Positions 27,578 to 48,856 of a DNA stretch of 64,000 nucleotides are shown piece by piece. The notes below the pieces were generated by a model. The model ran no database searches and was not told where the DNA came from. It saw only the letters and a program-made list of their open reading frames with translations. The DNA is from a virus. Position numbers and translations under genes: made by a program. Every line of letters begins with the position of its first letter. Within the stretch, counting starts at the first letter, position 1. The DNA is taken from IMG/VR virus record IMGVR_UViG_3300019487_000022, positions 59,807 to 123,806 of that record; one strand, written 5' to 3'.

Positions 27578-28783
27578 ATGTCTTTAAGATATAAACCCAT
27601 TATCAATTCTATATTGGATACCGACCTTTATAAGTTGACAATGGGTATGGCTGTGGGTAAGGAATATCCTCGTGAGATTGTTAATTATCATTTTATCAAT
27701 CGTGGCAAAACCGTATTTCCTGAAGGCTTTGGTTCCGAACTGATTAATCAAATTCAACATATGGCATCGCTTAGTCTTACAGACAGCGAAGCTTCTTTTC
27801 TTACCGAAAAATGCGGAAGTTTCCTTGATCCTTATTATATTAAAACGTTAAAAGGGTTTCGTTTTGATCCTTCTCAAGTTGATGTTATTCAAAAAGATGG
27901 AGATCTTCGTATCGAAATAATCGGTCCCTGGATTGAAACAATTTATTGGGAAGTGCCTCTTATGGCGCTTATTAGTGAATTGTATTTTTTGATGGAACGC
28001 TACCTTATCAGAACAGAAAATAAGATTGCAACAGACAGGATAGAAATTCTTGATAGGATAGTTAATAAAGGTAAAAAGCTGTCTAATGCGGGCGCTAAAT
28101 TCGCCGATTTCGGTACAAGAAGGAGACATTCATATAATACGCATGATATAGTAGTTTCTGGTTTATGCCAAAAATACTCTGGCAATTCATGCACAGGAAC
28201 GTCAAACGTACACTTTGCACAAAAATACAACACGACCCCTATCGGTACTCAGGCTCATGAATGGTTCATGTACCATGCAGCTAAATATGGCTATCGCATG
28301 GCGAATCAAATGGCTCTTGGAAGGTGGGTTGATGTATTTGGTGGTCAATTGGGTATTGCATTAACAGATACTTTTACTACCAAAGATTTTTTTCATCATT
28401 TTGATCTATTATATGCACAACAGTTTAAGGGAGTAAGGCAGGATTCGGGGGATCCGTTAGTATTTATGGAGAAAATGATCGCTCACTATAATTCACTGGG
28501 AATTGACCCATCAACAAAGACCATTGTGTTTAGTGATTCTTTGAATGTGGAAAAATGTTTAAATATTCTTGAGAAAGCTAATAATCGTATTATGGTTAGT
28601 TTTGGAATTGGAACTAATTTTACTAATGATGTAGGTTATAAACCCCTGAATATGGTTATTAAATTAATGAATGTTAAATTTCAAAATCGTTGGATTCCTA
28701 CTGTTAAATTCTCGGATGATGAAGGTAAAGTGCTTGGACCTGAAACTGAAATAGCATATGCTAAGTATGCATTAGGATTATAA
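27578..28783 (+). CDS. pncB: Nicotinate phosphoribosyltransferase
   Basis: 401 residues, full length. Converts nicotinate and PRPP (with ATP) to nicotinate mononucleotide. Diagnostic blocks: LDTDLYKLTMGMAV, ADFGTRRRHSYNTHD, CTGTSNVHFAQKYNTTPIGT then QAHEWFM (phosphorylated His), RQDSGDPLVF, FSDSLNVEKCL and GIGTNFTNDVGY. These match PncB rather than nicotinamide phosphoribosyltransferase. First gene of a plus-strand operon with a Pth2 gene (2 nt later) and nadE. A nicotinamidase gene at 42303-43112 supplies the preceding step. Confidence 0.93.
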   Translation: MSLRYKPIINSILDTDLYKLTMGMAVGKEYPREIVNYHFINRGKTVFPEGFGSELINQIQHMASLSLTDSEASFLTEKCGSFLDPYYIKTLKGFRFDPSQVDVIQKDGDLRIEIIGPWIETIYWEVPLMALISELYFLMERYLIRTENKIATDRIEILDRIVNKGKKLSNAGAKFADFGTRRRHSYNTHDIVVSGLCQKYSGNSCTGTSNVHFAQKYNTTPIGTQAHEWFMYHAAKYGYRMANQMALGRWVDVFGGQLGIALTDTFTTKDFFHHFDLLYAQQFKGVRQDSGDPLVFMEKMIAHYNSLGIDPSTKTIVFSDSLNVEKCLNILEKANNRIMVSFGIGTNFTNDVGYKPLNMVIKLMNVKFQNRWIPTVKFSDDEGKVLGPETEIAYAKYALGL

Positions 28784-28785
28784 AA

Positions 28786-29178
28786 ATGAAAGAACCAAAG
28801 TTAGTTATTGTTATGAGATCTGACCTTAATATGAGCAAAGGAAAAATTGCTGCTCAAGCTGGTCATGCGGCGGTAGCTTTTCTTTTAGCTAAAGTTGCAA
28901 ATAAGAAAAACTTAGAATATACTACAGTTTCTTTTAAAGAAGTAGAACAAAAATGGATGCAAGGTATTCAAAAGAAAGTATGTTTAGATGTTTCTTCAGA
29001 ACAAGAACTATTATCTATATATGAGCATGCAAAAACAGGAGGATTAGAAGCCCATTTAATTACTGATTTAGGATTGACCGAATTCAATAGTGTAGCAACA
29101 ATGACTTGCGTAGGTATAGGTCCAGACACTGAAGAAAAAATCAATCTCGTTACAGGAAGCCTCAAACTCTTTAAATAA
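28786..29178 (+). CDS. Peptidyl-tRNA hydrolase 2
   Basis: 130 residues, complete Pth2 domain: KLVIVMRSDLNMSKGKIAAQ, AGHAAVAFLL, IQKKVCLDVSSEQELLSIYE, GLEAHLITDLGLTEFNSV then ATMTCVGIGPDTEEKINLV. Pth2 releases peptidyl-tRNAs that fall off ribosomes. It is usual in archaea and eukaryotes and present in some phages. Placed between pncB and nadE with minimal spacing, so translated with them. A second, possibly recoded Pth2 homologue lies at 34526-34864. Confidence 0.92.
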   Translation: MKEPKLVIVMRSDLNMSKGKIAAQAGHAAVAFLLAKVANKKNLEYTTVSFKEVEQKWMQGIQKKVCLDVSSEQELLSIYEHAKTGGLEAHLITDLGLTEFNSVATMTCVGIGPDTEEKINLVTGSLKLFK

Positions 29179-29185
29179 AGAGAAA

Positions 29186-31171
29186 ATGGATATGATTATT
29201 GCACTTGGACAAATTGAAGTGGAATGCGGAAAGCCTCAAGATAATGTCGGGAGAATGCTCCGCATGATTTCTTCATCTGCTGAGAAAAAAGCTCAACTTA
29301 TTTGTTTTCCTGAGATGTGTGTTGGAGGCTACCTACTAGGAGATTTATATCTTGATGATGATTATTGTTTAGATTTAATGTCTTATAATGCTGAGATTGC
29401 AGATGCGGCACAGAAATATAATATTGCTGTAGCATTTGGTAATGTTTATTTAGAAGAAAATATTTACGATAGAATTGGCGGAAATAAAAATATCCCTCAT
29501 CCAAATAAAGATGGTCGGCGAAGAAGATATAATGCAGCTTATATTTACAATAAAAAAGGAGAACCCGCAACAAGGGCAATTAATACTCTCAATTTGTTGC
29601 CTAAAGGCATACAAATTAAATCAAATCTTCCTAACTATAGATTCTTTGATGATGTAAGATATTTCTTTTCAATGCAAGATCATATTAAAGAATTTGGTAT
29701 TTCAAATATCGGTGCTTATAGCCCATTTGACATTGATGGTATTAACATTGGATTCGCATTGTGTGAAGATTTATGGTGCGAAGATTACAGAGAAGGCGAA
29801 GAATCAATCAATCCAACTAAATACTTGGCAGAAAATGGTGCAGAGGTTATAGTTAATCTTTCTGCTAGTCCCTGGACTTACGGTAAAAAAGATGCAAGAC
29901 ATAAAAGAGTAAAAAAAGTTCTAAGCGATTACAGACCTATTAATAAAGCAAGAATGCCCGTCTCTATGTTCTATGTCAATTGTTGCGGTGTGCAGAACAA
30001 TGGCAAAAACATCATAACATTTGATGGCGGTTCTACAATTTACGATGGAGCAGGGAATCCTGTTGTTGTTTCAAACGAAATGTTTAAGATGGATCTTCTT
30101 ATAGCCTCTGTATCTTCAAACTTGCAGATAGAAAATTCTAATATAAATTCAGATTTATCGTCTCCAAATGTTTTAGTAAAACGTGATAAAATTGAAGAAA
30201 AGTATTTAGCTATTAAAACGGCTATTCAACATTTTGTTAAATGCAATGCTGTAATTGGTGTAAGTGGAGGCATTGACTCCGCAGTAGATGCGGCTCTATT
30301 TGCTGACGCTATTGGTCCAGAGAATGTTATCGGTATCAATATGCCTACCAGGTATAACAGCGAAACTACTAAGAATGCGGCTAAAGAATTATGCGATAAT
30401 CTTAAAATCCCATATTATGTAATCCCTATCGAAGATATGGTGGAAGCAAATAGAAAGGCATTAGACAAATATAGCAAGCTTAAAAAGCAAGATACATTCC
30501 TACAGTCTCTTGTTGAAGAGAATATTCAAGCTAAAATCCGTGGCGCAAGTGTTTTATCCAATATTGCGCAGATGGAGAATGGGATTTTTGTAAATAATGG
30601 AAATAAAATTGAGGTTGCTATTGGATATGCTACTCTTTACGGAGATTGGGGCGGTGCTATTGCTCCTTTAGGAGATTTAACAAAAACAGAAGTATATGAA
30701 TTAGGAAAATACCTTAATCAGCATGTCTTTAAGAAAGAGGTTATTCCTGCCGCATCTTTTAATGTTGCTCCAAGTGCTGAATTAAAAGAAAATCAAAAAG
30801 ATCCCATTATTGTAGAATACCATTCTGCAATGATCGATAAAATGACAAACTATATGATTGCCTCTGCAACTGATTTTATGGAATGGTGGCTAGAGGGTAA
30901 GTTAGAAGAAAAATTAGGTATTTCTAATGATGTTCTGCAAAAATACAATCTTACAAATGCTGAAGTATTTTTGAAAGATTTGAAGTTTATATTATCTCGG
31001 GAAAGAAATCAGGTTTTCAAACGAGTACAAAGTGTTCCTATTGTTGTTACTTCCAAGACAGCTTACGGATACGATAGAAGAGAAAGTATAATGCCTTCTT
31101 ATACTTGGACTAAAAAAGCTGAAGAATTAGAAAAGCGTATTAGAGAACGCGGTAGTTATACCTTTTCATAA
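29186..31171 (+). CDS. nadE: Glutamine-dependent NAD+ synthetase
   Basis: 661 residues, the long two-domain form. Residues 1-300 are a nitrilase-type amidase with E43 (FPEMCVGGY), a Lys near 145 (KSNLPNYRFFDDVRYF) and C193 (ALCEDLWCED). Residues 330-661 are the ATP-dependent synthetase with SGGIDS at 360-365 (pyrophosphatase loop), and GDWGGAIAPLGDLTKTEVYE. Makes NAD+ from nicotinate adenine dinucleotide and glutamine-derived ammonia. All catalytic residues are visible, so it should be active. Its 3' end overlaps the convergent lipoprotein gene by 16 nt. Confidence 0.93.
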   Translation: MDMIIALGQIEVECGKPQDNVGRMLRMISSSAEKKAQLICFPEMCVGGYLLGDLYLDDDYCLDLMSYNAEIADAAQKYNIAVAFGNVYLEENIYDRIGGNKNIPHPNKDGRRRRYNAAYIYNKKGEPATRAINTLNLLPKGIQIKSNLPNYRFFDDVRYFFSMQDHIKEFGISNIGAYSPFDIDGINIGFALCEDLWCEDYREGEESINPTKYLAENGAEVIVNLSASPWTYGKKDARHKRVKKVLSDYRPINKARMPVSMFYVNCCGVQNNGKNIITFDGGSTIYDGAGNPVVVSNEMFKMDLLIASVSSNLQIENSNINSDLSSPNVLVKRDKIEEKYLAIKTAIQHFVKCNAVIGVSGGIDSAVDAALFADAIGPENVIGINMPTRYNSETTKNAAKELCDNLKIPYYVIPIEDMVEANRKALDKYSKLKKQDTFLQSLVEENIQAKIRGASVLSNIAQMENGIFVNNGNKIEVAIGYATLYGDWGGAIAPLGDLTKTEVYELGKYLNQHVFKKEVIPAASFNVAPSAELKENQKDPIIVEYHSAMIDKMTNYMIASATDFMEWWLEGKLEEKLGISNDVLQKYNLTNAEVFLKDLKFILSRERNQVFKRVQSVPIVVTSKTAYGYDRRESIMPSYTWTKKAEELEKRIRERGSYTFS

Positions 31172-35115: not shown

Positions 35116-35188
35116 GCGTCACGGTGGGACTTGAACCCACAACCTGAAGATTTGAAATCCTCCGCTCTGCCAATTGAGCTACGTGAGC
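35116..35188 (-). tRNA. Trp-like suppressor tRNA, anticodon UCA (reads UGA)
   Basis: Cloverleaf: D-arm GCTC AATTGGCA GAGC, anticodon arm GAGGA-TTTCAAA-TCTTC with anticodon TCA at 34-36 and U33 present, 5-nt variable loop, T-arm GTGGG TTCAAGT CCCAC. D-arm and variable region closely resemble tRNA-Trp, whose normal anticodon CCA would become UCA by one change. The acceptor stem pairs over 7 bp only if one C on the 3' strand is bulged (GC-TCACG with CGTGA-c-GC), so function is likely but not certain. Confidence 0.75.
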
Positions 35189-35233
35189 ATATATGTATGC
35201 TACTTTAAATTAAAGCACCATACATATTTAAAT

Positions 35234-35992
35234 TTATGTATTATCTTTAATGTCTGTATCTTCTTTAGGATTTTCTGCAAAGAAATCCTGAGTTGTTAAA
35301 GACATTAACTCATCTGCTGCTTCTTTATTATCTGTGGAACGAGCTCTAACAGCGGATTTAACTTTACTGACATATGATATACGAGAAGTTCGTAATGTGT
35401 CAAATGCATTTTTTGTTCCTTTTTCAGATGGAACATAATTTAATGTGTTATTTACACTAAATCCTAGTTCTTTAGCAGTTTTAAGGGTATTCTCATCGCA
35501 CCCTATAAATGTGAATGTCCATGCACGACTTGAACGAAATTCTTCCAATATTGTTTTAAGTTTACCGAAGTCTCGCCATTCTTGCGATGAAGAATTTTCG
35601 CCTCCATCAGTAAAAATAGTGACTACAACATTGACACTTTGAGAAGTCAATTGATCCCTAATCTCTTCAGAAAGACGTTGTACTGTTTTTCCAATTGCCT
35701 CATATAGTGCAGTACTTCCTGATGGACTATATGTATTAGTGGTCAAGTCTTTGATTTGATTAACAGGCTTATCCCATATATCACAAGAAACTGAATCATT
35801 AAAAGTAACAAAATATAATTTTTGTTCTATTTCTGAATCGTTTTCTTGTTCTTTACGAAGTGCGATCAGGTTTTCGTTAAACCCGTCGATAGTTGACTGA
35901 CGAACCGATGTCATAGAACCGCTTTTATCCAAAATCAGTACATGACATATTGTGTGTTTACCTAACACACTCTGAGCTGCATTTGTAGACAT
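35234..35992 (-). CDS. von Willebrand A (TerY-like) domain protein
   Basis: 252 residues, one vWA domain with an intact MIDAS: DKSGSM (DxSxS), SGSTALYEAIG (the Thr loop) and TIFTDGGENSS (Asp). Residues about 20-200 are the domain; the tail (SRISYVSKVKSAVRARSTDN) is basic then acidic. Similar to TerY and to the second vWA protein at 41369-42124, which sits in the PP2C-kinase cluster. A metal-dependent protein-binding role is likely. Confidence 0.88.
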   Translation of the reverse strand: MSTNAAQSVLGKHTICHVLILDKSGSMTSVRQSTIDGFNENLIALRKEQENDSEIEQKLYFVTFNDSVSCDIWDKPVNQIKDLTTNTYSPSGSTALYEAIGKTVQRLSEEIRDQLTSQSVNVVVTIFTDGGENSSSQEWRDFGKLKTILEEFRSSRAWTFTFIGCDENTLKTAKELGFSVNNTLNYVPSEKGTKNAFDTLRTSRISYVSKVKSAVRARSTDNKEAADELMSLTTQDFFAENPKEDTDIKDNT

Positions 35993-36072
35993 AAAGTCTC
36001 CTCTCTACTCTATTTATAAGCGGAATTGCCTATAAAACTCTCTCAAAAGCAAAATCTTTAATGGTTACAACA

Positions 36073-37062
36073 TTAAAGGATTTTATTGCTTACTCTCTCT
36101 AAGTATTCATTCGTCTTTTCAATATCTTTTACTTTAAAAACCAATATAACTTTATTCCAAAGTACATCTTGTTCTTTCACAAAAACAGAATTGGTAATGT
36201 ACCTTTTTATTTCTTTTCGATTTAATTCTTTCATGCTTTTACAATAAATGCCTTTTCTTCCATAGTACTCGCTATTTTCTGCCTTACCTTTTAAGAAAAC
36301 ATCGTAAAGATCAGGAAATACCCAACGTCCGCATTGGTCACGATTAAACATTCTTAATTCGTGAGTCAACCATCCATGAGTAGCTTTGGTTGCCTCTAAT
36401 TCCTTTTGTAAACGATCTCTGTGTTCTGCTCTCCAAGGTATATAAACAGGCTCAGGGATTTCAGCAAATGTTAATAAATGCCATTTTCCTTTGTAAGAGT
36501 GGCATTGATGCCATTTATCCACTTCTATACGATAATATGGTGTTTTATCAACACGATATCGATCATTTTTAGGAACTAATTCTAATAATCCAGTTCCTGG
36601 ATGAACATATACTATGGCATAAGACTCGGAGATTGGAAGATAAGGAATGCCTTTAGCAATATCTCCACGTATAGAAAAACGATAGATATAATCCGAAGCA
36701 AAATATACTTCGCCTTCTTCGTTTAAGAAGGTTTTTTCTTCCACATAATCTTTTGCATGTTGCCAAATGTGATATTGTACAGCAGAGCTGGGATTTATGT
36801 ATTCACACATTTCAGAGAATACTTGGTCCCAAGATCTTCCAACTTGGCTACGAAGGTAACGCATTAAGGGATTGAGATTTTCATTCAATTCCTTGCATTC
36901 CCAGCTTTTTGTCCAATTACGGATACCTTCACGATCTGTCAAAAGATCGTAATTGTCGTTATGAATACAACGGTTTAACTCGTGTTTTAATTCATTGCGA
37001 CGTTCACGGTATTTAGTTGCGTGTCCTTTGTATCGTGGACGTTCCACGATAACCTTTGCCAT
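36073..37062 (-). CDS. Conserved protein of a Planctomycetes-like family (MAKVIVERPR type)
   Basis: 329 residues from the ATG that gives MAKVIVERPRYKGHATKYRE; a start four codons upstream is possible. Features LNENLNPLMRYLRSQVGRSW then DQVFSEMCEYINPSSAVQYH, and PYYRIEVDKWHQCHSYKGKW. I recall the beginning and the GR-(P/S)-WD-x-V-(Y/F)-SE block from uncharacterised proteins of Planctomycetes and Myxobacteria, but I have no family name and no function. It suggests gene exchange with that host group. Confidence 0.7.
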   Translation of the reverse strand: MAKVIVERPRYKGHATKYRERRNELKHELNRCIHNDNYDLLTDREGIRNWTKSWECKELNENLNPLMRYLRSQVGRSWDQVFSEMCEYINPSSAVQYHIWQHAKDYVEEKTFLNEEGEVYFASDYIYRFSIRGDIAKGIPYLPISESYAIVYVHPGTGLLELVPKNDRYRVDKTPYYRIEVDKWHQCHSYKGKWHLLTFAEIPEPVYIPWRAEHRDRLQKELEATKATHGWLTHELRMFNRDQCGRWVFPDLYDVFLKGKAENSEYYGRKGIYCKSMKELNRKEIKRYITNSVFVKEQDVLWNKVILVFKVKDIEKTNEYLERVSNKIL

Positions 37063-37183
37063 ATCTGATCTCATGTAAGTTCCTTTCGTGTCTACACCTA
37101 CACATGTGCGTTGTAGACCATAGCTTACTAGTTGCAGCTATGCCGCCATTCGCGGACGAAAAAGAATATGAAAAACCAGTCAT
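37013..37183 (-). CDS. Possible 56-residue leader ORF
   Basis: ATG 37181-37183 preceded by AGGAG at 7 nt spacing. The 56-residue product begins MTGFSYSFSSANGGIAATSK and its end overlaps the next gene out of frame by 50 nt. Strong ribosome site but unremarkable composition, so it may be a translated leader. Low certainty. Confidence 0.35.
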   Translation of the reverse strand: MTGFSYSFSSANGGIAATSKLWSTTHMCRCRHERNLHEIRYGKGYRGTSTIQRTRN

Positions 37184-37226
37184 AACAAAATCTCCTAAAC
37201 AAATACCGAATAACCAACTTCCGTAA

Positions 37227-37254
37227 TTAATATCGAGTTATTTTTCTCTGGAGA
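37227..37254 (-). promoter_or_regulatory. TCTCCAG-type promoter
   Basis: TCTCCAG (minus, 37248-37254), 13 nt, then GATATTAATTAC. Lies just after the stop of the gene at 37262 and upstream of the leader ORF and MAKVIVERPR-type gene. Confidence 0.45.
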
Positions 37255-37261
37255 AACAACT

Positions 37262-37834
37262 TTATTTTGCCTCTCTTTGAGACAAATATAAATCTAGTAT
37301 GCTATATTTCTTTGGTAAGTTCAGCTTTGACGGAGCTTTACCACTCAATATTGTTTTTTGTGCTTCTAAAAATGCCTCATCACATGAGGTACATCCTCCA
37401 CCATTACAGGATGTGTTTTGACATTTTGGACATTGAATCGCAGGAGTTTCGCATACATCGCACCAAAACCAAAAATATTCAGAATCCATGAAAGTATCCT
37501 TATGTTTTAGAATTGTAGGGAACATATTACTAAAGAATTTTTGTTCTTTAGGTTTGTTGCACTCTATCAATATATTATCTGGTCCCGTCAATTCCTTTTT
37601 GATCCATTCATTATAATCAGAACGTCTTAATTTGGCAGGTAAAGCCATTTCTTGTAAAACTCTTTTTTGAGCAAGAGTTAATTTTTTAGGGCGTGAAAAT
37701 ACTATCGTGGATGTTAACGGACGTTCGATTTTCTCCCCAATATTTAGATCAACTGAATAACAAATTGCATTATCATTTGTTCTAATAGGGATAGTTAACA
37801 ATAATATTAAAGCAAGATATATATTATACCACAT
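37262..37834 (-). CDS. Unknown protein with N-terminal hydrophobic segment and Cys-rich ribbon
   Basis: 190 residues. Residues 1-17 are hydrophobic (MWYNIYLALILLLTIPI), a signal or anchor. The C-terminal half has a Cys cluster FWCDVCETPAIQCPKCQNTS then CNGGGCTSCDEAF, eight Cys that could bind two zinc ions. Directly follows the deoxyribosyltransferase-like gene. No family recognised. Confidence 0.65.
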   Translation of the reverse strand: MWYNIYLALILLLTIPIRTNDNAICYSVDLNIGEKIERPLTSTIVFSRPKKLTLAQKRVLQEMALPAKLRRSDYNEWIKKELTGPDNILIECNKPKEQKFFSNMFPTILKHKDTFMDSEYFWFWCDVCETPAIQCPKCQNTSCNGGGCTSCDEAFLEAQKTILSGKAPSKLNLPKKYSILDLYLSQREAK

Positions 37835-37847
37835 ACACCATATAAAA

Positions 37848-38303
37848 CTATATTAAAACTTCTTTTATAAGATCTGATAATGATAAGCAAGCATTTCTTT
37901 TAGTTTCTAGATTATAAAGCCAATCTAAATAGTTAGTGTGACATGCGCCGTCAGGTCGTCCATAATAGAGCCTGCCACTTGTTACATATCTACCAAATTC
38001 TACATTAGTAGTAAGTGCTGGCATATTTGTCATATTACGTGGAACCCAACAGACGATCTTTTTGCAATTTTCTAGCCAGAAACGTTCCCAATTAACTTGA
38101 TCTAGAAAATCTATTCTGGATTGAAAACTTTTAAATTCAGGAATTAATATTACACCGTCAAAGTTCTGAATGATTAATTCTTGAATTGCTTCTGGACGCC
38201 AAGATTTTACATCTGGATTTCTGGGTGTAGGTCCAGCTAAGAAAATAGTGTCAAATCTTAATAATTCTGAATCAATAGGATCGTCAGAATAAACTATTTT
38301 CAT
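37848..38303 (-). CDS. Nucleoside 2-deoxyribosyltransferase-like protein
   Basis: 151 residues. Matches the nucleoside deoxyribosyltransferase-like fold: TIFLAGPTPRNPDVKSWRPE, GVILIPEFKSFQSRIDFLDQ, WERFWLENCKKIVCWVPRNM and TTNVEFGRYVTSGRLYYGRP, the last two being the usual substrate and Glu-containing blocks (candidate catalytic Glu in NVEFG). The fold is shared with TIR and ADP-ribosyl cyclase enzymes, but the GP-x-x-R and EFG motifs favour deoxyribosyltransferase. Could exchange bases on deoxynucleosides. Confidence 0.75.
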   Translation of the reverse strand: MKIVYSDDPIDSELLRFDTIFLAGPTPRNPDVKSWRPEAIQELIIQNFDGVILIPEFKSFQSRIDFLDQVNWERFWLENCKKIVCWVPRNMTNMPALTTNVEFGRYVTSGRLYYGRPDGACHTNYLDWLYNLETKRNACLSLSDLIKEVLI

Positions 38304-38310
38304 ATTTATC

Positions 38311-38670
38311 TCACACTATATCTATTGATAAAAATTTTATACCACATGAATTTACCAGTTTTGGTTCATCTTTATTTACTTTTTCAGGAGATGATACATA
38401 TCCAACAAATGAATTTTTATTACATGTAGTAAAAGTAAATCTATTATTGTTATCTATATACACGGGACCATCAGGAGAACCGGAACCTATTGAGACTCTA
38501 TTATTAGAAGCATCAACGAAAAAAAGTGAACCTTCTTGTGTTTCTATAATAGGAAAATTTCCAGATGATTTGTCTTCTATCTTCCCTGAGCCATTGCATT
38601 TCGTACATTTTTTCTTACTGACAAGTAAAGGAATGTACCCGTCGCCCTTACATTCATCGCATTTCTTCAT
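38311..38670 (-). CDS. DnaJ-type zinc-finger protein
   Basis: 119 residues. Residues 1-31 hold two CxxCxGxG repeats (CDECKGDGYI and CTKCNGSGKI), the DnaJ cysteine-rich module, without any J domain. Residues 35-119 form a beta-rich region (GSLFFVDASNNRVSIGSGSP). Follows the kinase gene and likely belongs to that set, perhaps as an adaptor. Stops with TGA. Confidence 0.75.
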   Translation of the reverse strand: MKKCDECKGDGYIPLLVSKKKCTKCNGSGKIEDKSSGNFPIIETQEGSLFFVDASNNRVSIGSGSPDGPVYIDNNNRFTFTTCNKNSFVGYVSSPEKVNKDEPKLVNSCGIKFLSIDIV

Positions 38671-38697
38671 AAGAGTATTTTATCCTTACTATTATCA

Positions 38698-40392
38698 CTA
38701 TTTCATTTTAAATGTATAAAGACTGTTATTTTTTGTTATAACAGCCTCATCTCCATATCTGTGAATTTTCATCTTCCCATTAACAGCATTGTCACTCACA
38801 ACTGTTAATCGTGTATCATCTTTTGTGTTTTTGAACACATTTACATCGTCTTTTTCATCAATATGAATGCATATTCCATTTTTAAGCACTGTAAAATTCA
38901 ATCCAGAATATACAATATCCTCATCGATACGCATATCATATGTATCATGAGACGAATTAAATCTTAATACAAAACGATCATATCTACCCTGTTTAGTTAC
39001 TCCTATCATCATTAAAACAGAACTTTCATATTTTGCGTCAATTATCTTATGTTTTGCAATTTCAGGTATAGTTATGCGTTTATGCATTCGCTCGGATGGA
39101 AATACAGAAACAAACTTCATATCAATCAAGTTCTGTATTGCTATTCCGTCAAAAAGTGTAGTTGCTTTTTCAGAAACGTTAGCAATTGGCTGATTGATAA
39201 TTTTTATCGTATTAGGTAGTTCTATGTAACGTATTTCATTAATCCAAGTTCCATTTTTAATGTATACCCTTCCTTGACAAACCATCATATCTGAAGCAGA
39301 TACCGAACCTATTTCTTTATTGGCAATAAAATCTGTGAATTTTGCTAATCCATTTTCTAAATATGCAACAATAGGTTTATTTAATTGAGGCGTAAATATA
39401 ACTTCAGAATTAGATGATATAGCAACTGGAGAGTTGTTATTGAATTTGCCGGACTTTTTATCTGTGACGAATCTATGTCCAAAACTGAAAATGATATTTG
39501 TAAGTTCTCCCATTCCAGAAAATTCTTCAATTTTCTTGACAATAAATTTATTACTACCAATGAATTGATTAACTCTAGGTACATAAATAACAGTATCTAT
39601 TTTGTTACTTTGTGGAGGAAGCAATCTTTTTCCCTCTTCAAAAATTGCAAAATACCATTTACGATATTCATCCGGTATCACATCTACGGGATCACATGCT
39701 GCTGGTACTAAAACATCTTTGTTAAATACCGATATATTATGAGCCATTCGCTCTTCAAATCCTTTATACTTATCATGTCTCCCCTTAAATGGATGAATAC
39801 CTGTAAAAAGTTGAAATGTAATTATTCCCCAAGAATACCAATCAGAAAGAACTGTAAACTTGTTATCTTTTATCAAAGGATCTTTTATATTTGGCATAAT
39901 AGCCGTAGCAGGATGTTTTTTGGTTTGATAAGTATTTGTATCTATAAAATAAACCTCTTTTAAATCTTTTCTAACGAGAAAGTTCAACTCATTACAATCA
40001 ACAACCAATATCTCTTTTTTATGAAGATGTTCTATCCCCTCTTGCAATCTCTTTACAAGGAAAAGAATCTGATCTTGATTGACATTGTTTTTATTTTTAA
40101 ATGCACGAGTAAATAACTGACATAAAACGTATGTATTAGTTACATACTTCATACTATAGCCAATGGGACGGTTTTTCTTATCTAAAATAATATCTTCTGG
40201 TTTAATTATATTAGGAAGAGTAATAGCAGATAATTCTTGTATTTTCTCATATGGTATCATCTTTGACGGATCTGAATAAATCTTAAAAACAGTATCTCCG
40301 TGAGCAAATATTTTCCCTTCTCCACCTTCAGCTAGAAAATCTGAAGGATCAAGCTTTAGTTTCCCTTTGCCTTGTATTGTGAAGTCAAGCAT
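38698..40392 (-). CDS. Protein kinase with C-terminal beta-rich domain
   Basis: 564 residues. Residues 15-265 are a eukaryotic-like Ser/Thr kinase: glycine loop AEGGEGKIFA, K37 in VFKIY, VVDCNELNFLV (catalytic D132 and N137, HRD replaced by VVD), D151 in FIDTNTYQ (DFG replaced by DTN), and SDWYSWGIITFQLFTGIHPF. The changed HRD and DFG neighbours resemble the kinases of the TerY-phosphorylation triad. Residues 290-564 look like repeated beta strands, perhaps a propeller sensing domain. One base upstream of it is a PP2C phosphatase gene. Confidence 0.85.
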   Translation of the reverse strand: MLDFTIQGKGKLKLDPSDFLAEGGEGKIFAHGDTVFKIYSDPSKMIPYEKIQELSAITLPNIIKPEDIILDKKNRPIGYSMKYVTNTYVLCQLFTRAFKNKNNVNQDQILFLVKRLQEGIEHLHKKEILVVDCNELNFLVRKDLKEVYFIDTNTYQTKKHPATAIMPNIKDPLIKDNKFTVLSDWYSWGIITFQLFTGIHPFKGRHDKYKGFEERMAHNISVFNKDVLVPAACDPVDVIPDEYRKWYFAIFEEGKRLLPPQSNKIDTVIYVPRVNQFIGSNKFIVKKIEEFSGMGELTNIIFSFGHRFVTDKKSGKFNNNSPVAISSNSEVIFTPQLNKPIVAYLENGLAKFTDFIANKEIGSVSASDMMVCQGRVYIKNGTWINEIRYIELPNTIKIINQPIANVSEKATTLFDGIAIQNLIDMKFVSVFPSERMHKRITIPEIAKHKIIDAKYESSVLMMIGVTKQGRYDRFVLRFNSSHDTYDMRIDEDIVYSGLNFTVLKNGICIHIDEKDDVNVFKNTKDDTRLTVVSDNAVNGKMKIHRYGDEAVITKNNSLYTFKMK

Positions 40393-40393
40393 T

Positions 40394-41278
40394 TTAACTC
40401 ACGTTTAAGACAGCAACTGAAACATCATCAAAATTTTGCCAATCTAATTTTACTATTTCTTTTTGAAACCAATTAACTTGTCGTTGTACAAAAGATCCGT
40501 TTGTATTACGAAAATCCAGAAGAACTTTTAATACTTCTTCTAACGGAATAGAGTCAGGGTTTTCACCCTTTCTGGTAAATGAATTTACACCATCGGATAA
40601 AAGCGCTACCCACTCAACATCCTCTTCTACAGCAAAACAATAACACCCATGTTCTGTATGAAAACCTCTAAATGTTGGCTTTGTCCAATTCTTCATATTG
40701 ACTCTTTGATATTCTTTCCATTCAGAATCATAACTAATTTCGGTTTGAATAATGCTTTCTTCTGGACCTCCTGCGGCATTTAATATACTTTTCCATTGTT
40801 CCATTCTTTCTGCATCATGTAAATAATTGAGATATGCCGGATAGCCAGATATATACTCCATAGTATAAACTAAATATGTTTTATTCTTCAATTTGAAAAC
40901 AATTATTCCATCTCCAAATAAAGAAGCATAAATCATATCTAAAGGGGCTATTTCTTGACCGAATAATGATGTTTCAGCAAACATTTTACCGGCATACCCC
41001 AATGTCGCATCCAAACATGAATAATCTAAATTCAAAGATTTACAGATATTTCTTGCTTCCGATATAGCCAACCTATCTATCTTTTGAAGATCAATATCTG
41101 GATAATAATTGACCATTTTATTTGCTGATAAAGATAGAATTCTTGCACCAACATCTGTCATTGGAGATCCTGAACAGCCATCTGAAATGATAATCCGGTT
41201 ATAAGCTTTATTTACAAATGCAAAATCTTGACACACATGGTGTCCTTTACCTTGAAAAAAAGAACAATCCACGTTCAT
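40394..41278 (-). CDS. PP2C-type protein phosphatase
   Basis: 294 residues from ATG 41276-41278 (GGAG upstream); a longer frame would translate through a terminator hairpin. PP2C blocks: HHVCQDFAFVNK, IIISDGCSGSPMTDVGAR (metal Asp), YASLFGDGIIVF, WVALLSDGVNSF and NFDDVSVAVLNV (second metal Asp). Removes phosphate from Ser/Thr, opposing the adjacent kinase. Gene order vWA, PP2C, kinase is the TerY-P triad arrangement. Confidence 0.88.
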   Translation of the reverse strand: MNVDCSFFQGKGHHVCQDFAFVNKAYNRIIISDGCSGSPMTDVGARILSLSANKMVNYYPDIDLQKIDRLAISEARNICKSLNLDYSCLDATLGYAGKMFAETSLFGQEIAPLDMIYASLFGDGIIVFKLKNKTYLVYTMEYISGYPAYLNYLHDAERMEQWKSILNAAGGPEESIIQTEISYDSEWKEYQRVNMKNWTKPTFRGFHTEHGCYCFAVEEDVEWVALLSDGVNSFTRKGENPDSIPLEEVLKVLLDFRNTNGSFVQRQVNWFQKEIVKLDWQNFDDVSVAVLNVS

Positions 41279-41297
41279 AATATCTCCAAATAAAAAT

Positions 41298-41340
41298 ACC
41301 TGGTAATCTGAAGGCACAAATATATTCCAGATTACCAGGT
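41298..41340 (-). terminator. Terminator or attenuator between vWA and PP2C genes
   Basis: Arms 41298-41310 and 41328-41340 pair over 13 bp (CAGATTACCAGGT as the 3' arm on plus), followed on the minus strand by ATTTTTATTT. The PP2C ribosome site lies right after it, so it could tune vWA against PP2C-kinase expression. Confidence 0.7.
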
Positions 41341-41368
41341 TCAAGATGTCTTAAACTATAGCGTAGAA

Positions 41369-42124
41369 TCAGAACTTCAATGGTACAGATGCAGAACCTG
41401 TACCGAGAGCCTGGCTTTGTGCAGAAATACTCTTAGAAACAAAGTTGGCTAGCTTCTTTAAAGTATTTGTATCTGCGTTTTTCTGTTCTACGTACTGTGT
41501 AAGCCCACCTTCTTTATAAAAATCAGCAAGCCTTTGTGATGTATTCTGATCTTCAATACCAACGCCAATTAAAATTGAAATAATTGACTCTAAAGATTCA
41601 TCTTTGATAGTTTGCGCCAATACGGCTTTAACATCTGATGCATTGCAAGATGAGACATTATCACAACCGTCTGTAATAACAACAACAATTCCATTTACCT
41701 GAAACCTTTGATTAGCTAATTTTGTAGCATAATCATGTGTTGCCATAATTGCGTTCTTTGTAGCATCAAATAAAGCAGTTGAACCACCCACCTGAAGACA
41801 ATCATTATAATCGTCAACTTTGCAATTATCCAAAGGTTTAAAACCATGTGTTTGAGAAACAGAACTTGAAAATTGGAGGAAACGAAATAGTAGATTGTCT
41901 TTTCTGGGACTAAATTGACAGGCTTCAACTATCTTTTGAATCGTTTCTTCCATTTGAACTTTATATGGTTGCACAGAGCTTGAAACATCGTTTACCAATG
42001 TAACAAGTGTAAATTCTGTTGCAATTTCATCCAAATCAGCAACCTTTGCAGCAGAATACGTAAAATTCGCTTTAACAATCTTATGATCTTCAAGCGAATT
42101 ACTGATAGTAGCGGATTTAGACAT
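41369..42124 (-). CDS. von Willebrand A (TerY-like) protein of the phosphorylation triad
   Basis: 251 residues from ATG 42122-42124 (AGAGG upstream). vWA domain with VTLVNDVSSSVQPYK (MIDAS-like, DxSxS kept as DVSSS), GGSTALFDATKNAI and VVVITDGCDNVSSC. The tail SAQSQALGTGSASVPLKF is conserved-looking. Likely the client or adaptor of the PP2C-kinase pair encoded next, as in bacterial TerY-P modules. Confidence 0.88.
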   Translation of the reverse strand: MSKSATISNSLEDHKIVKANFTYSAAKVADLDEIATEFTLVTLVNDVSSSVQPYKVQMEETIQKIVEACQFSPRKDNLLFRFLQFSSSVSQTHGFKPLDNCKVDDYNDCLQVGGSTALFDATKNAIMATHDYATKLANQRFQVNGIVVVITDGCDNVSSCNASDVKAVLAQTIKDESLESIISILIGVGIEDQNTSQRLADFYKEGGLTQYVEQKNADTNTLKKLANFVSKSISAQSQALGTGSASVPLKF

Positions 42125-42248
42125 CTGATTTCCTCTTTCTGTTCTTGGATTCAGTATATTGTTCCTGGCACAATTCACAGAACCAAATACTGTTTTTCTT
42201 TTTAATCTTGCCTAAACAAACGCGAAAATTATGTCCCGTCGATATCAT
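42117..42248 (-). CDS. Possible 43-residue Cys protein
   Basis: ATG at 42246-42248; the end overlaps the vWA start codon by 8 nt. Product has a candidate small zinc-binding pattern (H and C in GHNFRVCLG, then WFCELCQEQY) and a basic tail. It fills the only gap in this operon. Weak ribosome site. Confidence 0.4.
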   Translation of the reverse strand: MISTGHNFRVCLGKIKKKNSIWFCELCQEQYTESKNRKRKSDV

Positions 42249-42302
42249 TTCTCGACAAATTTTATCTAAAGGCAGATTTTTTAATTTTAATCTTTTTTGC
42301 TA

Positions 42303-43112
42303 TTAAAGCATGTAATCTGTTGTAGTAGTGATTCTCATTCCTCTTGCACTCAAATCTTTGACAAATTTTTCACCCAAAGATTCAAAACCACCTACATTGC
42401 TAGATGCATCTTTAAGCAAGATAAGATTCTTTACAAGCTCATCATTTTTAAATTCATCCGCAACATCTCGAAAAGTGTTAGCAACACAGTGGCTTAAAGC
42501 TTCACCTGAAATAAGAATTTCATCTGCTTTGATTAAACTTTCAATGAATTCTCCGTCCAATTGAGTATAAGGATCATTTGGATCCTCAACTTCTGCTTTA
42601 ATAGCACTATAATGTTCGCAATAGGGATTACTTCCTTTTGTCTTTGTCTGAATGACCTGGAAGTTATCTCTTGCCCATGCTCTTAATTCCTCATGCAATG
42701 GAGGATAAATCGCTTGCCCAGCACTTCCAATAATGCAATGTGGAGGCCAGATACATAAAGCATATTTGCCTTTTGCCGCTAAATCACGAACATAATTTAA
42801 TGCAATATTGCAAATGCTTTTTGAAGGCATTGCAGGCGTCCATTTGCCTTTTTCTACATCTTCTGGATTAATGATTGTAAATGGAGGTGGGTTTTTGCCG
42901 TTAGCATCAACCCAAAAACAAGGATGAGCAATATGTAGATCGTGGTGACTATCGAGAGTAACGCGAATATTTTGTAATTTACGACCAAATTTCTTAACGA
43001 ACTTAGCTAAACGATTCATATCTTCGTTTGCCCCTGCAACATATAGACTCCCTTTTGGATCGCAAAAGTCTATTTGAGGGTCAATAATGCACAGTTCGAT
43101 ACGTTTGGGCAT
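42303..43112 (-). CDS. pncA: Nicotinamidase-like isochorismatase-family hydrolase
   Basis: 269 residues from ATG 43110-43112 (AAAGGA upstream). Isochorismatase fold with the nicotinamidase triad D11 (IIDPQIDFC), K159 (KTKGSNPYCEHYSAI) and C209 (SGEALSHCVANTF). Metal ligands are likely D54 and the following His residues (LDSHHDLHIAHPCFW). CIWPPHCIIGSAG replaces the usual WP-x-H-C-x-x-G-T-x-G. Would hydrolyse nicotinamide to nicotinate, feeding pncB. Longer than standalone PncA because of an insert at about 70-95. Pyrazinamidase-like activity on another amide cannot be excluded. Confidence 0.78.
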   Translation of the reverse strand: MPKRIELCIIDPQIDFCDPKGSLYVAGANEDMNRLAKFVKKFGRKLQNIRVTLDSHHDLHIAHPCFWVDANGKNPPPFTIINPEDVEKGKWTPAMPSKSICNIALNYVRDLAAKGKYALCIWPPHCIIGSAGQAIYPPLHEELRAWARDNFQVIQTKTKGSNPYCEHYSAIKAEVEDPNDPYTQLDGEFIESLIKADEILISGEALSHCVANTFRDVADEFKNDELVKNLILLKDASSNVGGFESLGEKFVKDLSARGMRITTTTDYML

Positions 43113-45598: not shown

Positions 45599-46168
45599 AT
45601 GAGAATAATAGGATTTCTGTATCTTCTATTGTTGTTAATTGTAGGCTGTACTGATAATAAACATATCAACTATAATTGTAATTATAGTAACGCAAAAGCT
45701 GCATTAAATCCAAAAGAAAAATCATTAGCTCTTGGTACTTTATCATCTTCTACTACAAAACCGTCTTCTTCTGACAAATACATCATATGTTTAAATAAAA
45801 ATCTAGAATTTGCTAAAGAAATGGCATGGAGAGATGCTAAAACGCGATTTACTAATCCAGTTGTAGTTTTAGCTCATGGGCGGGAATATCTAGGCAGTTG
45901 GTTTATTTTTCCAGATAAGGGAGATCCTTTTAGAGTAGATAGCTATGCTTGGATATTAAACGAAACATATATAGATTGTGATATTGTTTTATTTGTGTGC
46001 AATCCATCTGGATTAACGATATATGTACCACGAGTATGGTATTATAGAGGAAACGTTTGGGTAGTACCGGATACAGAACCTCCTGCAAAATATCGAGAGA
46101 TGAAAAGAAATTTTATGGGTAATGGCTCTATTTGGGAAGCTATTACACAAAATACATGGGCTGAATAA
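45599..46168 (+). CDS. Lipoprotein on the opposite strand
   Basis: 189 residues. Signal LLLLLIVGC gives a lipobox with acylated Cys at 17. The mature part has FAKEMAWRDAKTRFTNPVVV, DSYAWILNETYIDCDIVLFV and GLTIYVPRVWYYRGNVWVVP. No family recognised. It is a lone plus-strand gene without a Shine-Dalgarno; a 10-bp AT hairpin (45571-45597) ends one base before the ATG. Exposed phage lipoproteins often block superinfection, which is only a suggestion here. Confidence 0.65.
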   Translation: MRIIGFLYLLLLLIVGCTDNKHINYNCNYSNAKAALNPKEKSLALGTLSSSTTKPSSSDKYIICLNKNLEFAKEMAWRDAKTRFTNPVVVLAHGREYLGSWFIFPDKGDPFRVDSYAWILNETYIDCDIVLFVCNPSGLTIYVPRVWYYRGNVWVVPDTEPPAKYREMKRNFMGNGSIWEAITQNTWAE

Positions 46169-46257
46169 GGAAGATAGTGGAGTCGAACCACAGGCACTAA
46201 TCAGTGACACCATCCCGCTTCGAACGGGCGACCATTACCACAATGGCTATATCTTCC
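46169..46257 (-). tRNA. tRNA-Ser, anticodon CGA
   Basis: GGAAGAT/ATCTTCC acceptor, anticodon loop TTCGAAG, long variable arm, T-arm with TTCGACT. One mismatch at the base of the anticodon stem. Reads UCG. Confidence 0.85.
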
Positions 46258-46450
46258 GCTGAGAAAATTCTTCGTAATATCCAGCTAGCTCATCTTCAAC
46301 AATTACTTTCATTTTGTGAAAACGATAACCATATTGTTTTTGTTCTTTACAAACAGCTTTTACCTCCGATCTATTCTCTTTGCAAACTGGTTTTCCATCA
46401 CATCCACAAATAAAGCGTTTTGCAGTTAAATCTACTACATAATATTTCAT
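46247..46450 (-). CDS. Small Cys-containing protein
   Basis: 67 residues. It has RFICGCDGKPVCKENRSEVK then AVCKEQKQYGYRFHKMK. Its last 11 nt overlap the 5' end of the tRNA-Ser(CGA) gene. Stop-to-start spacing with the upstream gene is 2 nt. No family recognised. Confidence 0.6.
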   Translation of the reverse strand: MKYYVVDLTAKRFICGCDGKPVCKENRSEVKAVCKEQKQYGYRFHKMKVIVEDELAGYYEEFSQRKI

Positions 46451-46452
46451 TG

Positions 46453-47331
46453 CTAATCTTCTTCTTCATCTGTGATTCTAGGAAGTTCCCCTAATGAAAA
46501 TTCTCTAATAAGATGTTCAAACGGTTCTTCTCCCTCTACATTCCACATTTTAATTAAAAAGTTATGTTCAGCAACTGTGAGAATCATGGCGGGATCTATT
46601 ACACTATTAGGAATAGATATTTTTCTTGAATAAATGGTTTTCGTTTGAGGTATCCACATTACCCTAATTCTGCCATCTTCTTCATTTTGCCATGTATCGT
46701 TGGCTTCCAATGAAAAGATATCTGCTAGTTTGGGTATCTTGTAACATTCTGACATAACTTCAAAATATCGCTGTTTTGCTAAAGCAAAACCTTTTAACAA
46801 ATCGTCTGTTAATGTTCCAGGCATATCCGCATAAAAATAAATACATTCCCTGTAGCCATAAGGAATTCTTCCTAATTCAGCGCTAAATGCAGTATTTGAG
46901 AAATCAATGTTTGCAACTGCAAAAAGGTTACTATCTAAATATCTAATTTTTCTATTGTTTTCTTTGATTATCTTTTTGGTAAATGGATATCTTTGATCAG
47001 AAATAATTTCAGTTTCTACATCATGTCTCCTTGTCCATTGATTTGCATTTATTGCAATTTTAAAATAGCGAGGGAAATCAAATAATTTGTTATCAAGTAT
47101 TGGAAAATACCTGCTTAATTTTGCAGCTACGTATTTTTTCCCAAGTGCTAACAAAACCTTTGATTTGCGTTGCCGTAAAATCTCATATCGTCTCCCTGCC
47201 CTATCGTATTTAATATTTTCTGCTCTTTCTATTGCCTCAAACAAACTATCTTCATTTTTTAATTTAGAAGTATGCTTGTAAATAATCTGAGGAAATTTTT
47301 CAATTGATTCATCAATAGTCATTACAGACAT
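46453..47331 (-). CDS. Unknown protein
   Basis: 292 residues. Conserved-looking segments are RRYEILRQRKSKVLLALGKK, FDFPRYFKIAINANQWTRRH, IPYGYRECIYFYADMPGTLT and DGRIRVMWIPQTKTIYSRKI. A folded enzyme-like protein without a motif I can name. Ends acidic (RITDEEED). Confidence 0.7.
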   Translation of the reverse strand: MSVMTIDESIEKFPQIIYKHTSKLKNEDSLFEAIERAENIKYDRAGRRYEILRQRKSKVLLALGKKYVAAKLSRYFPILDNKLFDFPRYFKIAINANQWTRRHDVETEIISDQRYPFTKKIIKENNRKIRYLDSNLFAVANIDFSNTAFSAELGRIPYGYRECIYFYADMPGTLTDDLLKGFALAKQRYFEVMSECYKIPKLADIFSLEANDTWQNEEDGRIRVMWIPQTKTIYSRKISIPNSVIDPAMILTVAEHNFLIKMWNVEGEEPFEHLIREFSLGELPRITDEEED

Positions 47332-47369
47332 GATTGCGTCTCCTTTATTTTGAATTTTGTCAAAATAAG

Positions 47370-47603
47370 TTAATCGTCATAAGGTTCCAGTTGAATATCC
47401 GCAGTATCTTCCTCTAATTGTTTTTGAAAATTATCATATTGTTCTTGTGATGGTGGTTTACATGGAGGATTACATTGACAAGGAAAAACTGTATAATGAC
47501 CACAGCGTTTATTTAAACGCATAGCTTTTAATACAGCATTATACATGTCTTTATCGCCTTCTGCTGCTTTATACATAGCACAAGCTAATATTGGAAAACT
47601 CAT
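47370..47603 (-). CDS. Small Cys/His protein
   Basis: 77 residues with MRLNKRCGHYTVFPCQCNPP then CKPPSQEQY, a possible metal-binding knot. Start overlaps the preceding stop as ATGA. No family recognised. Confidence 0.6.
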   Translation of the reverse strand: MSFPILACAMYKAAEGDKDMYNAVLKAMRLNKRCGHYTVFPCQCNPPCKPPSQEQYDNFQKQLEEDTADIQLEPYDD

Positions 47604-47995
47604 TCTTGATTCTCTTTCTCTTCCCTTTTCTTTTGAAGTTTCATTTTTTGTTCAAATGTTAGTTGTTCTTCTGCTTCAGGACTAGGCTCAAAACCATTAG
47701 CAATAAATAAATCTTCTATTGTGTCTGCATCTTCATAATCTTCATCGGTTATAACCATCCACTCGCTGCCGCAACTAGTGTCAAAAACATCCTCTATGAT
47801 TTGTTTTTCTACTACATTACCCAGATTATCGTGAATATGCACATAACCCATAGTTATATCATTAGCACATACTTGGCAAATAAAGCCAGTAATGTAGTGT
47901 ATTGCTTCTTTTCTGGATTCAAAACCACTGTGATTATGATTCCCATTTACAAGATGAACAGCAGTAAATCCCATTGTATTTTTCCTATGTATCAT
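47600..47995 (-). CDS. Unknown protein
   Basis: 131 residues. It has TAVHLVNGNHNHSGFESRKE then AIHYITGFICQVCANDITMG (His- and Cys-containing), and an acidic Glu/Lys tail. Overlaps the upstream gene by 11 nt. No family recognised. Confidence 0.6.
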   Translation of the reverse strand: MIHRKNTMGFTAVHLVNGNHNHSGFESRKEAIHYITGFICQVCANDITMGYVHIHDNLGNVVEKQIIEDVFDTSCGSEWMVITDEDYEDADTIEDLFIANGFEPSPEAEEQLTFEQKMKLQKKREEKENQE

Positions 47996-48224
47996 TGAGA
48001 TTTGATTCCCAACGATTTAATTCTGATTGCTCATAACAGAAAAAACCATGATTCAAACTATAAATAATTACCCAACCATCTTTTTCTTCTATAAAAGCAT
48101 TACTTATGAAAAAGAAGGTTTTATCTTTATGACTAATGACAGCATAATTTTTAAATCTATCATCTGTTGACTTTAGCGTTTCAGCAATAGTATCTGCATA
48201 CTGCTCTATTTCGTCCAGATTCAT
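47985..48224 (-). CDS. Unknown small protein
   Basis: 79 residues with NYAVISHKDKTFFFISNAFI and GWVIIYSLNHGFFCYEQSEL, beta-rich. Terminates with TAG. No family recognised. Confidence 0.55.
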   Translation of the reverse strand: MNLDEIEQYADTIAETLKSTDDRFKNYAVISHKDKTFFFISNAFIEEKDGWVIIYSLNHGFFCYEQSELNRWESNLNDT

Positions 48225-48226
48225 AT

Positions 48227-48499
48227 CTATTCCATTTTATTCTTTTCATCCAAAACATCTTGTTTAAGCTGTTTTATTTTAGCACAGATATTTGCCATTG
48301 TTTCGCTTTTTTCTTCGTGAGATAAATTTTTTCTATTTGAAAATACTATTTTATCTCTGTTTATTTCGTCTATTCGTGTTTGGTATTTTTTGAAAATGAT
48401 TGTGTGACGTTTAAGATTTTCGCAATATGCGTTCCATTCTTCGTGCATATTGTTATATTCGACTACATATCTTCTGATACCTCCATCTCTATTCTCCAT
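48227..48499 (-). CDS. Unknown small charged protein
   Basis: 90 residues from ATG 48497-48499; a longer frame would read through the adjacent tRNA gene. Helical and charged (YCENLKRHTIIFKKYQTRID). Terminates with TAG. Next is the tRNA-Leu gene, 4 nt upstream of its start. Confidence 0.55.
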   Translation of the reverse strand: MENRDGGIRRYVVEYNNMHEEWNAYCENLKRHTIIFKKYQTRIDEINRDKIVFSNRKNLSHEEKSETMANICAKIKQLKQDVLDEKNKME

Positions 48500-48503
48500 T
48501 AAT

Positions 48504-48583
48504 GCGGGCGACAGGAATCGAACCTGCACACCTTATGGTACTGGCTTCTAAGACCAGCGCGGCTGCCGTTACGCCACGCCCGC
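48504..48583 (-). tRNA. tRNA-Leu, anticodon UAG (copy 1)
   Basis: GCGGGCG/CGCCCGC acceptor, anticodon arm CTGGT-CTTAGAA-GCCAG, variable arm with ACC/GGT stem, T-loop TTCGATT. Reads CUA (and likely other CUN). Confidence 0.88.
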
Positions 48584-48598
48584 AAATATCTTTAAAGT

Positions 48599-48727
48599 GG
48601 GACAGGCGGGATTCGAACCCTAACAGTATTGCTACTGTAGCTGACAGTTCATGTGTTCGCGACGGGACATGCTGTCAACGCATCTGTCGATTAGAGGTCT
48701 CTATCGGCTTACTTAGCCCACTGTCCC
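48599..48727 (-). tRNA. 129-nt tRNA-like gene with expanded core
   Basis: A perfect 7-bp acceptor (GGGACAG/CTGTCCC), a T-arm with TTCGAAT and a short D-arm (GGCT..AGCC) bracket a core about 55 nt longer than any normal tRNA. The core holds a hairpin closed by ATGC/GCAT with loop GTTGACA (anticodon would be UGA, but base 37 is C) and a strong ACAGTA-GCAA-TACTGT hairpin where a variable arm should be. It lies 3 nt from one tRNA-Leu gene and 15 nt from the other. Could be an odd class II tRNA, a tRNA with an insertion, or a tRNA mimic. Confidence 0.5.
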
Positions 48728-48730
48728 AAT

Positions 48731-48804: not shown

Positions 48805-48828
48805 GTAAAAAATATGGCTATTTTCGAT

Positions 48829-48854
48829 AATAAAGAGAATTTAACTTCTGGAGA
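48829..48854 (-). promoter_or_regulatory. TCTCCAG-type promoter for tRNA cluster
   Basis: TCTCCAG (minus, 48848-48854), 13 nt, TTTATTATCG, ending about 25 nt before the first tRNA-Leu. Confidence 0.45.
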
Positions 48855-48856
48855 TA

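Follow-up and report, generated by a model that had tools for sequence, protein, structure and literature searches.

Results

A nicotinamidase-like gene heads a vWA, phosphatase and kinase gene set

The window analyzed here is a 64-kb stretch of the 123,806-bp virus record IMGVR_UViG_3300019487_000022, which is understood as a phage fragment because it carries portal and terminase genes; coordinates below are window positions. The locus under study consists of four genes (hereafter, the tetrad), which in tetrad order are as follows.

42303-43112, minus strand: predicted nicotinamidase-like cysteine hydrolase (PncA type), 269 aa from ATG, first tetrad gene; PF00857 match weak.
41369-42124, minus strand: TerY-like von Willebrand factor A (vWA) protein, 251 aa from ATG; PF00092, 34.1 bits (cut-off 23.8); MIDAS intact; Ser-rich C-terminal tail.
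40394-41278, minus strand: PP2C-type phosphatase, 294 aa from ATG; PF13672, 24.0 bits, exactly the cut-off.
38698-40392, minus strand: YegI-like protein kinase with a C-terminal beta-propeller-like domain, 564 aa; PF00069, 44.7 bits (cut-off 31.7).

A sequence-only reading of the window had placed the last three genes side by side and likened them to the TerY-P triad of bacteria. Both statements hold: the open reading frames (ORFs) and Pfam matches put the vWA, PP2C and kinase genes consecutively on the minus strand (gaps of 1 and 90 nt in the ORF list), and adjacent genes for vWA, PP2C and protein kinase are what Anantharaman reportedly took in 2012 to define the triad. The hydrolase gene at 42303-43112 was not named in that reading, nor were the genes for PncB and NadE at 27578-31171.

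The hydrolase is assigned as nicotinamidase-like from its profile, its predicted structure and its complete active site. Yeast Pnc1 is the best match of the hydrolase profile in the Protein Data Bank (PDB; E 6e-20), and its catalytic and metal-site residues are aligned with those of the phage family. Across 61 sequences D11, D54, H56, H125, K159 and C209 are invariant and H63 is conserved to at least 90%; D11, K159 and C209 correspond to the catalytic Asp, Lys and Cys of nicotinamidases, while D54, H56, H63 and H125 preserve the metal site DxH...H...H. The AF2 model (pLDDT 97.5) has the isochorismatase fold, and a structural search with it returned nicotinamidases in all of the top 16 rows (Z 24.0-18.9), followed by an isochorismatase-like hydrolase (Z 18.7); with rows within 1 Z taken as tied, the nicotinamidase boundary is soft, but the top seven stand clear of it. 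The spacer between H63 and the WPxHC motif is longer in the phage hydrolase, and the Isochorismatase Pfam score lies under the cut-off in three of four phages. Because the protein falls below the E. coli-type PncA equivalog cut-off (PRK11609; 27.3 bits vs 174), nicotinamidase-like is used as the cautious name.

The kinase, PP2C and vWA proteins look active, and the kinase is YegI-like

The sequence-only reading had noted that the kinase has modified HRD and DFG motifs. These are VVD and IDT, and the modification is the family norm, the same pattern being found in E. coli YegI; the catalytic residues are kept, with K37, D132, N137, D151 and D184 invariant or conserved to at least 90% (61 sequences). 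In hhalign the kinase profile scores 130 (E 1e-16) with YegI but only 62 (2e-7) with a PknB-type control, by which the protein is classified as YegI-like rather than of generic PknB type and the resemblance to the TerY-P triad is upheld. The shared signature reads GGEG...KIY, (G/V)D.N..NF.V...IDxDS(F/Y)Q. Likeness to E. coli yegL-pphC-yegI extends to gene arrangement, vWA, PP2C and kinase standing there in the same order on one strand (locus L190) with the divergent yegJ in between. An identity as MADS or PD-T4-6 defence kinase was rejected: MAD6 scores 21.7 bits against a cut-off of 460, and the PADLOC matches (at most 37 bits) reflect generic kinase similarity.

In the AF2 model of the kinase (pLDDT 93.7) an N-terminal kinase domain is followed by an all-beta region at residues 283-564. 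Foldseek matches of this C-terminal half include WD40-type propellers, the LRRK2 kinase-WD40, Hsv2 and Nup133. The propeller call leans on secondary structure and these Foldseek rows because a separate structure alignment of the kinase model gave almost only kinase-domain rows. Unlike the phage kinase, YegI shows a match to a helix-hairpin-helix model (below cut-off).

The other two proteins likewise look functional. In the PP2C protein D18, D33, D123, D229, D284 and D285 are invariant or conserved to at least 90%, and the vWA MIDAS residues D46, S50, T116 and D152 are invariant (53 sequences each); PF13672 reaches 40-52 bits in three relatives of the phosphatase. Of 115 vWA homologues (89 phage, 26 bacterial), 96 have the tail motif SxS[SA]xS within their final 30 residues. 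Ser and Thr make up 28% of the tail vs 15% elsewhere, and hhalign sets a similar Ser-rich stretch of E. coli YegL opposite this tail. The tail is thus a candidate site of phosphorylation by the kinase.

The tetrad is widespread in very large phages

A viral scan with the kinase as single sequence gave no matches, and alignments were used instead. In 50,697 phage records, tblastn detected the kinase at full length in LR756511 (595 kb) and LR745208 (485 kb), both huge metagenomic phages, with partial, weaker matches in LR756500 (462 kb) and the human faecal contig MT837596; PP2C relatives occur in two of these, and vWA relatives in three and in Rhodococcus phage Trina (vWA only). All three huge phages encode hydrolase, vWA, PP2C and kinase in this order on one strand. 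The 6.5-kb faecal viral contig MT837596 (L004) carries a very divergent tetrad in canonical order. LR756511 encodes, close to its tetrad, another kinase (L001:2214-3785, minus strand), which is of canonical PknB type and probably includes a membrane segment.

Three scans of IMG/VR with four-row alignments (best 80 of 127, best 80 of 105, and 23 loci) were combined by merging loci that share DNA, giving 108 clusters; this deduplication by shared 50-mers is not a species count. All four genes lie on the stretch in 89 clusters; among the other 19 are some whose stretch is truncated at a contig end. The tetrad is one-stranded in 89/89. Absence of the gene order in relatives would have refuted the sequence-only reading, but the order does recur there: PncA-vWA-PP2C-kinase in 82 loci, PP2C-kinase-PncA-vWA in four and other orders in three, on contigs of up to 618 kb. 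The triad's adjacent vWA, PP2C and kinase genes, as seen in the window, recur in the 89 loci. The unit is, however, a tetrad and not a triad, with the nicotinamidase-like gene as its constant fourth member and first in order, and many very large phages carry this conserved set. The four proteins have correlated pairwise distances: Spearman coefficients are 0.46-0.63 for 95 of the 105 loci considered, and none of 500 permutations reached such values. This is expected for co-inheritance, though shared genome ancestry alone would give the same.

NAD genes in the neighbourhood of the tetrad

Two further enzymes of NAD+ synthesis are encoded in the window, 7-15 kb from the tetrad and separated from each other by a gene for peptidyl-tRNA hydrolase (PTH2).

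27578-28783, plus strand: PncB, nicotinate phosphoribosyltransferase, 401 aa; TIGR01514, 421.7 bits (cut-off 269.6); PF04095 and PF17767.
29186-31171, plus strand: NadE, glutamine-dependent NAD synthetase (CN_hydrolase and NAD_synthase), 661 aa; TIGR00552, 140 bits (cut-off 63.7); PF00795 and PF02540.

Families that recur near the tetrad, labelled from one representative each and encoded almost always on the tetrad's strand, include Nudix (35 loci), NAPRTase (31), NAD synthetase (28) and NadD-like proteins (13), then calcineurin-type phosphoesterase (12), NADAR (9) and macro (8). A Thg1-like tRNA-His guanylyltransferase is found near the tetrad in seven loci (e.g., L111:1881-2714). Iterated profiles place one or more of PncB (34), NadE (30), NadD (15) and NrtR (14) on 45 of the 89 tetrad stretches; PncB, NadE and NadD occur together with the tetrad on 10.

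PncB, NadD and NadE neighbours exceed curated cut-offs in examples. In loci of the L152 type PncB-NadE-PncA-vWA-PP2C-kinase is followed by NadD and NrtR in either order (PP2C and vWA are called swapped in one), L152 itself being a single run PncB-NadE-PncA-vWA-PP2C-kinase-NadD-NrtR, and in the L102/L129/L106 type the genes are interleaved as PncA-vWA-PncB-NadE-PP2C-NadD-kinase. Records such as L152 and L102 thus have all four enzyme types (PncA, PncB, NadD, NadE). Curated models support PncB (403 bits, cut-off 269.6) and NadE (797 bits, cut-off 473) in L102 and NadE (71 bits, cut-off 63.7) in L152; below cut-off, though with the expected model as match, are NadD (81-106 bits), NrtR (144.5 bits) and the L152 phosphoribosyltransferase.

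Whole records were searched for 49 tetrad carriers, the window's own and 48 chosen mainly by length from the 108 clusters. Over the cut-off, PncB is present in 27, NadE in 30 and NadD in 10; at E<=1e-3 the counts are 38, 38 and 30. A terminase match was obtained in 32 of the 49, at E 5e-23 or better for L102, L106, L129 and L152; weak terminase matches mean little because the model also matches 11 of 14 bacterial control genomes. Some tetrad phages have in-frame TAG (and TAA) in the frames of NadD (G031), NadE (G004) and terminase (G037), which hints at stop-codon recoding or broken genes.

The comparison set comprised 21 large virus contigs, 17 obtained via ribonucleotide reductase and four via a lone vWA; of the reductase contigs, 16 were large ones among 80 from an alignment-based scan, and L275 came from a separate scan that gave two. 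One control, G064, was excluded from the counts because it holds a tetrad-type kinase; it also has a PncB match, and its NadE exceeds the cut-off. NadE then exceeds the cut-off in 0/20 and PncB in 1/20 controls vs 30/49 and 27/49 tetrad records (Fisher 1e-6 and 9e-5). The contrast holds for the 12 controls of at least 100 kb (1e-4 for NadE, 6e-4 for PncB). The link of the tetrad to NAD is well supported, the identity of its genes and their NAD context being the strong part of the evidence. At L275:201-3815, relatives of the window's ribonucleotide reductase (21535-24231) have an in-frame insert of ~300 residues that resembles an intein.

Bacterial tetrads and exchange with phages

The hydrolase alignment was searched against 84,980 species genomes, and the best 80 of at least 424 confirmed relatives were considered, many on stretches cut by contig ends. 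The hydrolase is accompanied by vWA in 26 of these 80 loci (23 also with the kinase, 17 with all four genes) and by PP2C in one; it is found alone in 53. In 10 of the 26 loci with vWA, the hydrolase gene has an NrtR-like gene no more than 250 nt away, and the NrtR identity is upheld in four bacterial loci by PF21906 over the cut-off. Bacterial NrtR regulons place NrtR beside PncB, NadE and nicotinamidase genes, and the present loci share this feature; unlike the known regulon, NrtR here also borders vWA-PP2C-kinase genes, in bacteria and on 14 of the 89 phage stretches.

In the hydrolase tree phage and bacterial copies are interleaved, with 22 label changes (shuffled mean 55), at least nine of them on starred branches. 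Unless some contigs in bacterial bins are misplaced phage DNA, the module has accordingly crossed between phages and bacteria at least twice; the tree gives no direction of transfer.

Other genes of the window

Further features near the tetrad, or related to its context, are these.

38311-38670: DnaJ-type zinc-finger gene; PF00684, E 2e-4, below cut-off.
37848-38303, minus strand: nucleoside 2-deoxyribosyltransferase-like protein; PF15891, 30.5 bits; homologue cluster in five tetrad loci; not core.
35234-35992: second vWA gene; PF00092, 24.0 bits; without Ser-rich tail.
26035-26547, minus strand: macro domain (ADP-ribose related); PF01661, 48.1 bits; associated, a candidate for module membership.

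The zinc-finger gene and the second vWA gene, both pointed out in the sequence-only reading, were considered as parts of the module and rejected, neither being among the recurrent neighbour families listed for tetrad loci. The zinc-finger gene is present, with its weak match; the second vWA gene is real and stands outside the conserved module. The macro-domain gene adjoins a sigma-70-like factor (26035-27450, minus strand), divergent from PncB-PTH2-NadE.

ARAGORN calls a 73-nt tRNA-SeC with anticodon tca at 35116-35188 (minus strand). This is presumably too short for a usual selenocysteine tRNA, and we take it to be more like an opal-suppressor or Trp(tca) tRNA. Reassignment of TGA, at which it hinted, was rejected because 7 of 33 listed window genes end in TGA. 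Fifteen more tRNA genes (46168-62610, minus strand), mostly Leu (6) and Ser (4), suggest selective supplementation.

Discussion

The gene identities, the conserved active sites, the conserved gene order and the operons shared with NAD genes in both phages and bacteria make it probable that the locus forms the regulatory core of a unit for Preiss-Handler salvage of NAD+, encoded by the phage and fitted with a phospho-switch of TerY-P type. In the Preiss-Handler route PncA, PncB, NadD and NadE act in this order. Nicotinamide would be released by host NADase defences that break NAD+, or by phage consumption, and the nicotinamidase-like enzyme would deamidate it to nicotinate as the first, committing step. 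PncB would then form nicotinate mononucleotide, NadD the dinucleotide and NadE NAD+, with the NadD step in the window's phage supplied perhaps by the host or by the missing part of the genome. The YegI-like kinase would add phosphate to, and the PP2C protein remove it from, a target that is most likely the vWA protein's Ser-rich C-terminal tail. The vWA protein would then bind or free the nicotinamidase, raising or lowering NAD+ salvage according to the infected cell's state. NrtR-type repressors, ADPR-responsive according to their NCBIfam description, may add transcriptional control. We infer the substrate, the contact of vWA with nicotinamidase, the tail phosphorylation and the sensed signal; regulation by a phospho-switch is well motivated and testable.

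Several observations weigh against this proposal. PncB, NadE, NadD and NrtR are all absent nearby on 44 of the 89 tetrad stretches, and the average control contig is shorter than the average tetrad record. PncB and NadE of the window lie outside the tetrad operon on the opposite strand, and its record, with PncA-like, PncB and NadE genes present, yielded neither NadD nor another nucleotidyltransferase of the NadD family on its 123.8 kb. Matches of the phage profiles to YegL (E 2e-6) and PphC (3e-6) are only modest, and the window's second vWA matches the vWA profile better (4.6e-12) than YegL does. NrtR is found somewhere on the stretch in 10 of the 53 bacterial hydrolase-only loci, and so is not a marker of the triad itself.

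It could be that the NAD enzymes are ordinary auxiliary salvage and that kinase, PP2C and vWA act on other phage or host proteins, the operon being shared through co-expression only. Single NAD salvage enzymes are already known in phages (PMC9503650; PMC13384950), and the 44 stretches devoid of another NAD gene fit as well. This explanation is nevertheless unlikely, given that nicotinamidase and vWA are paired almost without exception in phages and are found paired in bacteria too, where NrtR adjoins the tetrads. It is very unlikely that the hydrolase cleaves another amide, for example a nucleotide-derived immune signal, which would make the unit a regulated signal-degrading enzyme: the superfamily is catalytically diverse, and the longer spacer and low Isochorismatase scores would suit such a role, yet nicotinamidases are the best matches in sequence and structure, ahead of other amidases, and PncB, NadE and NadD stand in the same operons. 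Highly improbable is the suggestion of the sequence-only reading that a free-standing triad imitates, replaces or jams the host's TerY-P stress or anti-phage module, for although the kinase is specifically YegI-like and exchange with bacteria happens, the fourth gene is constant, the neighbours in phages and bacteria are NAD-salvage and NrtR genes, ter genes were not seen among the recurrent neighbour families listed, PADLOC reports only generic kinase similarity, and the same NAD context of bacterial tetrads makes the phage module look like a working relative and not a decoy.

The proposed Preiss-Handler unit with its phospho-switch has counterparts among known systems. It differs from TerY-P and yegL-pphC-yegI by the constant nicotinamidase-like gene and the NAD operon context, and its hydrolase, which shares profile, fold, catalytic Asp-Lys-Cys and metal residues with PncA and Pnc1, is distinct from these in the longer spacer between metal-site segments, the genetic tie to a kinase system and the sub-cut-off equivalog score. 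Phage-encoded restoration of NAD+ is shared with NARP2, the KVP40-type salvage by NadV with NadM or NadR, and with NARP1 (Adps and Namat). The citation for NARP1 is PMC12774641, and KVP40 appears as a reference entry in PMC13282480. In contrast to these NMN or ADPR-PP routes, the present one would be the deamidating route via nicotinate (PncA, PncB, NadD, NadE), with an apparent phosphorylation switch.

Section 3.6 of PMC9503650 lists NadV, NadM and NadR among phage NAD+-synthesis domains, and not PncA, PncB, NadD or NadE. NAD enzymes alone are not new in phages, however, since PMC13384950 reports pncB, nadM, nadD and nadE in one phage. PMC7824862 gave no hit for PP2C or TerY, and PMC7162821 and PMC13282480 gave none for Willebrand or nicotin-. 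No prior description of a nicotinamidase-vWA-PP2C-kinase set was found in the open-access literature searched, and a listing of NrtR literature held nothing relevant to the bacterial version.

Lastly, the study has importance for the function of the TerY-P systems. Although these triads were recognized from sequence more than a decade ago, no biochemical role has, to our knowledge, been settled on; one branch of them now gains, from its nicotinamidase-like partner and the NAD operon context, a concrete and testable substrate pathway. To the NMN and ADPR-PP routes of phages is added a deamidating route of NAD+ salvage that apparently has a regulator of its own. Should the switch prove real, it would be a regulated counter-measure to NADase-based immunity. 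As a tentative proposal, somewhat short of an even chance, the kinase/PP2C/vWA relay may read the NAD+ or nucleotide state and gate the nicotinamidase in a module that phages and bacteria share and exchange; TerY-P-type triads might then be metabolic switches, with which huge phages could outlast NAD+-depleting immunity.

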